From positions 1 through 64,000 of the forward strand of contig JAKRSH010000017.1 in assembly GCA_022402465.1 (NCBI GenBank): a stretch of DNA of 64,000 nt, in the 5' to 3' direction. The DNA is from Leptospiraceae bacterium (lineage in GTDB: Bacteria > Spirochaetota > Leptospiria > Leptospirales > Leptospiraceae). A model generated the notes under the pieces. It saw only the letters and a program-made list of their open reading frames with translations, ran no database searches and was not told the DNA's origin. This document shows, piece by piece, positions 35,021 through 39,259 of the stretch. A program made the translations under genes and the position numbers. Each line of letters starts with the position of its first letter. Position 1 is the first letter of the stretch.

Positions 35021-35064
35021 AGAGATTCATACAATTGTTATTCTAACTAATGAGGGTAGTCCGA

Positions 35065-35487
35065 ATGAATAATCATATATACATGTTGAGAAAGAAGAGA
35101 GCAATTAAACAATACGATATGGCTCGTGCTTTGGGGGTATCTCCAAGTTATTTATCAAAAATTGAAACTGGGAGCCAAGAGCCAACTGAAAAGTTTAAGA
35201 TTGCATGCTCCAAATACTTAAAAACGAGTATTGAAAAATTATTCAATGATGGAGCCGTGGAAGAAATCTATCCAGAGTTCACTACTGGCTTGAACAATCG
35301 ATTGTGGGCTAAAAGACGAGAGATGGGAATCAAGCAATATGATATGGCTAAGAAATTAAAAGTTTCTACTCCCTTCCTATCAAAAGTTGAGTTAGGATTA
35401 TTAGAACCACCAGACGCTTTCAAGAAACTTGCCTCTAAGGTCTTTAAAATGTCCCAAAATGAATTATTTCTAAGTAACGTTGAATAG
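35065..35487 (+). CDS. Regulator with two tandem XRE helix-turn-helix domains
   Basis: From the ATG at 35065 the protein has 140 residues and contains two copies of an XRE/Cro-like HTH. Copy 1 has KQYDMARALGVSPSYLSKIETG; copy 2 has KQYDMAKKLKVSTPFLSKVELG, each followed by a similar helix and acidic end (SIEKLFND, SQNELFLS). It is an internal duplication, probably binding DNA as a tandem or pseudo-dimer. GAGGG (35052-35056) lies 8 nt before the ATG, favouring it over the ATG at 35050. A terminator follows. Confidence 0.9.
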   Translation: MNNHIYMLRKKRAIKQYDMARALGVSPSYLSKIETGSQEPTEKFKIACSKYLKTSIEKLFNDGAVEEIYPEFTTGLNNRLWAKRREMGIKQYDMAKKLKVSTPFLSKVELGLLEPPDAFKKLASKVFKMSQNELFLSNVE

Positions 35488-35571: not shown

Positions 35572-37167
35572 ATGAATTCTAATAAAAAAGATAGCTGGTC
35601 GAGTCGTACAGGTTTGATACTGGCTGTGGCAAGCGGTGCAATAGGATTAGGTAATTTCCTAAGATTTCCTGGTCAAGCGGCTCAAAATGGTGGCGGTGCT
35701 TTTATGGTACCATATATCATCTCCTTTTTAATTCTAGGTATTCCTGTTTGTGTCACGGAATGGATTATGGGAAGACGTGCTGGACATAGAGGACATTCAG
35801 CACCTGCAATTTTCTCTGAGTTTCTCAATGGAAAATCATTAAAAATATCTGGTACAATTGGAGTAATGATTCCAATTTTAATTTATGTTTATTATATATT
35901 TATAGAGGCTTGGTGTTTATCTTATGTGTTTTATTTTTTTTCTGGAGGAATCAATCTTTCTCAAGGATTGGATCCAAATTCTCTTCTCTTCACTTCATCA
36001 GTTGTAAATAATGCGAAATTATTTTTTTCAAATTTAACTGGTTCTACGAACAATGGGGATGCTTTTTTAAGTGATATTATTTATTTCACACTACTTTGTT
36101 TTATTATGAATTTTTATCTCGTATACAGAGGATTATCAAGAGGTTTGGAAGCTTTTTCTAAATTGGCTATCCCCTTAATGCTCATTGCTTCCAGTATCGT
36201 TTTAGTTAGGGTATTAACCTTAGATAAGATAGACTTAGGCTTAGGAGCTATGTGGAATCCAAATTGGGATAGTTTATACAATCCAAAAGTTTGGGTTGCA
36301 GCAGCTGGACAGATTTTCTTTTCTCTTTCAACTGGATTTGGAATAGCACTTGTATTTTCATCTTTTCTTACTAAGAAAAATGATGTTGTTCTTTCATCTC
36401 TTTCTTCTGCAACATTAAATGAGTTTTGTGAGGTTGCTTTGGGAGGAATGATCACTATTCCTGTTGCATTTTTATTTTTAGGAGCTTCCGTTGCGAGCTA
36501 TGGAACTTTTGGAATGGGTTTTATTGCCCTACCCTCTGTGTTTACTATGATGCCTGCTGGAAATATTTTCGGTGGTATATGGTTTTTAGTTTTATTTCTA
36601 GCAGCATTAACATCTTCCATTACTATGCTTCAACCCGGTATTTTATTTTTAGAAGAAGGATTTGGTTTATCTAAAAGAAAGTCATCAACTATACTGTTTC
36701 TATTTACCTTTGTTTGTTGTATGCCGATCTTATACTTTAATAAAGATTTCGCCGCACTAGATCTAACTGATTTTTATGTTGGAACTATTTTAATTTATAT
36801 ACTAGCAACGATCCAGATTTCTATTTTTGTTTGGAAGGTTGGTGTTGATGATGGTGTAAAGGATGGTAATGAAGGATCACATATTAAGATCCCATCTGTA
36901 TACAAATATATTATGAAGTATATAACTCCTTATTTTCTGATCATAATTTTTATAGCTTTTTTATTTCAAAATCTTCCAGAATATCTTGATAAAATGAATA
37001 TCAATCGCATGACTATGCTCGCCCTTGAAAACGGTGAATCAGTTGAAGATGCAATCACCAAAGTTTGGGTATCGAGATTTGTGATTATAAGTATAGTTGC
37101 AGTTTTTGGTTTAACATATTTTTTGGTTGGTAAAGCGCTTGAGAGAATCCAGAAAAGGGAAGATTGA
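35572..37167 (+). CDS. Neurotransmitter:sodium symporter (SNF/NSS) family transporter
   Basis: An inner-membrane sodium symporter of 531 residues with 11-12 membrane segments and the LeuT fold. The signature [25 protein letters not shown] contains the TM1 sodium and substrate site, and [11 protein letters not shown] the following motif. Bacterial members move amino acids (Leu, Trp, Ala or Met). The gene 2 bp downstream encodes a MetS-like small subunit, which suggests a MetP-like methionine/alanine importer, though residues for specificity were not compared. Confidence 0.93.
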
Positions 37168-37169
37168 AA

Positions 37170-37265
37170 ATGAATCTAGAAGGAATGATAATTATGTGTT
37201 TTTCATTGAGTATGGTTATAGGACTGAGTGTATTTTGTCTTTATCATTTAATTCGAACTAAATAA
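37170..37265 (+). CDS. MetS-like small subunit of the NSS transporter (31 residues)
   Basis: A 31-codon gene, MNLEGMIIMCFSLSMVIGL followed by SVFCLYHLIRTK, with one membrane segment and a basic tail. It starts two bases after the symporter stop, with AGGGA (37156-37160) 9 nt upstream. Size, topology and position match MetS, the small subunit needed for MetP function in Corynebacterium. The match is by pattern and place; direct similarity is limited, as expected for such a short protein. Confidence 0.75.
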   Translation: MNLEGMIIMCFSLSMVIGLSVFCLYHLIRTK

Positions 37266-37276
37266 AGTCAATTATC

Positions 37277-39259
<1,983 letters not shown>

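Follow-up and report, generated by a model that had tools for sequence, protein, structure and literature searches.

The window analysed here, a 64,000-nucleotide stretch of contig JAKRSH010000017.1 from a Leptospiraceae bacterium, carries a sodium symporter gene that is directly followed by a short ORF (Table 1). The ORF starts with an ATG at 37170, two bases past the TGA (37165-37167) of the symporter gene, and ends with a TAA at 37263-37265; its product is MNLEGMIIMCFSLSMVIGLSVFCLYHLIRTK. A purine-rich GGGAAG lies about 8 bases 5' of the ATG. The product has a single hydrophobic stretch (Kyte-Doolittle 2.42 across 17 residues) and a basic C-terminus, the last residues being HLIRTK. The original prediction, a real microprotein 3' of a sodium symporter with a ribosome binding site, one membrane helix and a basic tail, was borne out in all these respects. 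Only one of the 47 major ORFs of the window, the symporter, has a hydrophobic ATG frame of 25-60 residues between -10 and +60 of its stop. Many relatives have an ATGA in which the start of the small gene overlaps the stop of the symporter gene, and the small gene is probably translated directly after the symporter by coupling.

The neighbouring gene on the 3' side, which encodes a DinG/YoaA-type helicase, starts at least about 12 bases past the small gene, and no terminator-like site was found between the two. The protein upstream of the symporter has two tandem Cro/C1-type helix-turn-helix domains and is a possible regulator of it.

Table 1. Features at the symporter locus and fused forms of the small subunit in other genomes.
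Feature	Location	Strand	Remarks
Protein with two tandem helix-turn-helix domains	35050-35487	+	Cro/C1 type
LeuT-type NSS (SLC6) symporter, 531 aa	35572-37167	+	PF00209 170 bits; TM12 segment, basic C-terminal tail
Start region of small gene	37152-37169	+	Purine-rich GGGAAG and symporter stop, read directly
Putative small subunit gene, 31 aa	37170-37265	+	One TM helix; predicted N-outside, C-inside; profile match and synonymous-site bias
DinG/YoaA-type helicase gene	37277-39259	+	
Putative fused small subunits L154, L155, L156	Genomes G106, G125, G129		With LeuT-type symporters L134, L137, L138

The symporter was searched for in the family (8 of 8 genomes carry it, own genome included), the order (24 of 30) and the class. 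A small one-helix frame lies 3' of the orthologous symporter in all 32 class genomes with a LeuT-type symporter, and the 16 class genomes without one gave no convincing small-protein match (a single match at E=0.003 spans 19 positions); with kinship among genomes ignored, this linkage has a Fisher p of 4e-13. A profile made from 28 small proteins was then used in a six-frame search of 393 spirochaete genomes. It matched once in each of the 32 symporter-bearing class genomes, counting a fragment that lies at the end of a contig (G007); many of these genomes fed the profile, and members from other class families were found before their inclusion. The spirochaete genomes outside the class gave matches at chance level only.

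In almost every relative the frame after the symporter stop shows the same pattern, and its distance from the stop varies while the residues are kept. The pattern is MNxEGxIIM..S in the own family and MTTGGWIVM in family f6; family f2 has MTIGGWIIM..SV..VT.FF, followed by a tail, for example EHLHSTLDETPD. Among the individual loci, the small frame of L018 (G009) ends at 25 residues, which is either a truncated gene or an assembly error. At L028 and L029 (G020:C1:135283-136735) the frame of the LeuT-type symporter is disrupted and the downstream small gene is intact. Among the loci read, L017 is the only natural case of in-frame read-through between symporter and small protein.

Pooled over the relatives, pS was 0.62 and pN 0.15 in the small gene, and the sister pair G004/G006 differs there by three synonymous and no nonsynonymous changes. 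Because distant pairs are near saturation and the pair L005/L001, a comparison that involves the window, has a pN/pS of about 1.2 in the small gene, the argument for selection rests on the close pairs. A lack of protein-level conservation in relatives had been named beforehand as the result that would count against the original prediction; the frame is conserved across family, order and class, and its changes in close pairs are mostly synonymous. The small gene is under purifying selection as a protein, and the ORF at 37170-37265 is a genuine conserved protein-coding gene strictly linked to the LeuT-type symporter subtype.

The partner was originally called a MetP-type transporter, a label that PDB scores and the tree replace with LeuT-type. 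In a phmmer search of the PDB, LeuT was the nearest solved structure (360 bits, E about 1e-106), and MhsT scored 130 bits. The window symporter shares TM12 with LeuT of Aquifex aeolicus (PDB 2a65), and in the alignment it keeps most of the LeuT Na+-site residues and, as E287, the Glu that stands in for chloride. A tree of 72 NSS proteins, to which MhsT itself does not belong, placed Aquifex LeuT inside a clade with a support of 100, and the same was obtained with the TM12 columns removed. The clade's other members are symporters of the own class, further LeuT-type symporters from spirochaetes and a single one out of a Bacillota record, and wherever their 3' side could be read it carries the small frame, free or fused. 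Without the TM12 columns, a branch with 98 SH-aLRT has the small-gene-bearing symporters to one side; with them kept, this branch is weakly supported (78-84). LeuT-type and MetP-type symporters share one side of the tree. The distribution of small-gene-bearing symporters on the tree fits one origin.

A LeuT-type symporter from outside the spirochaetes (L119, Acetoanaerobium noterae record) is followed 17 bases later by MTGAALGFLVITWGIVFSVVGISLKAILDSEKKKK, which has an AGGAGG site and is matched by no family model. A scan of GTDB contigs found only three distant symporters, and viral contigs gave no matches.

Presence of the small gene goes with the C-terminal end of the symporter. In the loci compared for TM12, a non-random sample in which presence or absence of the small frame was partly judged by eye, symporters ending after TM11 (24 proteins with 0-9 further residues) lack the small frame. 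Symporters next to a small gene run on for 34-245 residues at the C-terminus, and this extension contains a hydrophobic helix, TM12. Exceptions are L010 (Thermodesulfovibrio) and L161 (G042), which have TM12 and no recognisable small frame, and L123 is uncertain. L161, on contig C329, is a second LeuT-type paralogue that lies outside the tree, and it may have its subunit in common with the copy on contig C406.

Two families bear on topology. In family f37 (L139 in G117, L141 in G112) a signal peptide and a short linker, read by eye, precede the helix. In family f36 the small helix is the C-terminal helix of a secreted protein of about 175 residues, with a signal peptide and a periplasmic domain of about 105 residues, and the partner symporter has an insert of about 180 residues in the outside TM11-TM12 loop. 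Since a signal peptide, with or without a periplasmic domain, precedes the helix in these families, the small protein is predicted to lie with its N-terminus outside and its C-terminus inside. A Pfam scan of the f36 fusion proteins gave no ACE2/collectrin match and only weak matches to bacterial Ig-like domains, so the periplasmic domain may possibly be Ig-like. The comparisons point to a contact of the small protein with the symporter near TM12, the helix that lies at the LeuT dimer interface (PMC5941172).

Whether the small protein is MetS-like, as had been proposed, has a divided answer. Against Pfam and NCBIfam the window protein gave no relevant match (none to NF033493 or PF16951 at E<=1), its relatives gave none to the MetS models at E<=10, and PF16951 had no match in the own genome. 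MetS sequences were taken from plasmid records (three annotated as MetS) and from spirochaete genomes; those run as positive controls matched NF033493 at 24-56 bits (cut-off 25), passing or nearly passing. The W-G-G (or F/Y-G-G) of MetS at positions 17-19 is absent from the window family in the alignment. A comparison of profiles with hhalign, however, aligned the window family to MetS without gaps and in register (columns 1-39 on 1-39; 96%, E 2.8e-9), with a score of 36.5 against 24.8 for the best of 150 nulls in which the TM columns of the MetS profile were permuted. This match covers about 30-34 alignable positions of one TM helix, and shared constraint from the same partner fold and topology could partly explain it. 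Intermediates, such as one beginning MNAAALIFMLGAWGVILV, adjoin other LeuT-type symporters (L135, L136, L142, L143). Because the profile aligns ungapped, in register and above the column-permuted nulls, the small protein is probably a diverged, unmodelled distant relative of MetS; likeness to MetS stands as probable distant homology and fails at the level of the curated models and of the W-G-G motif.

Like MetS (MaAIMP_sms; NF033493, PF16951), the window gene encodes a single-helix protein of about 30 residues directly 3' of a 12-TM NSS gene, and the two families share the core of about 30 residues, a small residue at position 5, a Met at 8/9 and a mostly basic C-terminus. The MetS-MetP transporter has been described as a two-subunit system (PMC3219685). 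Unlike MetS, the window family lies under the curated cut-offs, has a LeuT-type and not a MetP-type partner, and includes relatives with a signal peptide or a periplasmic domain. Canonical MetS is itself present in spirochaetes, above the NF033493 cut-off in 37 of 393 genomes, mostly of family f14, and the copies whose sequence was read directly sit 3' of NSS genes. The interest first claimed for the gene, that it extends the two-part design to spirochaetes, is lost because they already have MetS; what is new is the LeuT-type partner.

In our judgement the ORF likely encodes a distant homologue of MetS that serves as the single-helix subunit of a LeuT-type Na+/amino-acid symporter, and its most likely role, judged from sequence comparison, is that of a docking or stabilising subunit. 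The small protein would be made right after the symporter, probably by coupled translation, and its helix would enter the membrane so that the N-terminus faces out and the basic C-terminus faces in. Near TM12 it would then pack against the symporter's scaffold side as a stoichiometric subunit that the symporter requires to be stable or active, in a role comparable to that of MetS for MetP. For MetPS, such a role of the small subunit in stability or activity is said to have been reported by Trotschel et al. in 2008. ACE2 and collectrin, with SLC6A19 (B0AT1) and SLC6A20 (SIT1), are likewise one-helix, N-outside ancillary proteins of SLC6 transporters, and the f36 form, an ectodomain plus a helix, follows their plan; this is an analogy only, as Pfam shows no homology.

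Other readings of the small gene were weighed against the subunit. It is very short and belongs to no database family, as would be expected of a frame open by chance or of a conserved 3' element without coding function; its synonymous-site bias, the residues kept at varying distance from the symporter stop, its occurrence at just one of the 47 genes and its fusion to signal peptides in other genomes speak against this, which we regard as virtually excluded. The chance frame was rejected on codon pattern and conservation. We think it quite unlikely that the gene is a conserved single-helix partner of LeuT-type symporters which arose independently and converged on the MetS design. The silence of the MetS models, the missing W-G-G and the small number of alignable columns would suit such convergence, but the same-register match far exceeds the permuted nulls, the intermediates exist, and the tree puts LeuT-type and MetP-type symporters on the same side.

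Somewhat unlikely is a regulatory or assembly peptide (a chaperone, protease adaptor or kinetic modulator) that is not a stoichiometric subunit. Many bacterial one-helix microproteins act in this way. LeuT has been purified and crystallised without a partner, and it carries out transport in liposomes; as it is active alone, the small protein is not strictly needed for the catalytic cycle in LeuT, and this counts against the subunit and agrees with a regulatory or assembly peptide. The latter also agrees with the need of mammalian SLC6A19 and SLC6A20 for a one-helix protein, ACE2 or collectrin, in their trafficking to the membrane (PMC10491607). Against it stand the strict gene-to-gene linkage at a near one-to-one ratio and the fusion of the small helix to a large periplasmic domain in f36, which suggests a lasting complex.

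LeuT is the structural model for neurotransmitter sodium symporters and has been studied as a lone chain; it is known only as a single-subunit transporter, and no description of a small subunit of LeuT was found in open-access papers, most subscription journals lying outside this scope. The linkage suggests that LeuT may have been studied without a partner. More tentatively, and with rather more doubt than confidence, we propose that all LeuT-type transporters, Aquifex aeolicus LeuT included, were ancestrally two-subunit, with an N-outside one-helix subunit docked at TM12. LeuT structures and mechanism studies would then describe a complex that lacks a part, and in crystals the dimer contact at TM12 may occupy the subunit site. 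If the LeuT subfamily is ancestrally two-part, a defined missing component would make it possible to test its oligomeric state, what TM12 does and how its behaviour differs between detergent and membrane. As current Pfam and NCBIfam models do not see the small family, many genomes probably carry it without annotation or name, and its signal-peptide and ectodomain forms inform the topology of the whole superfamily.
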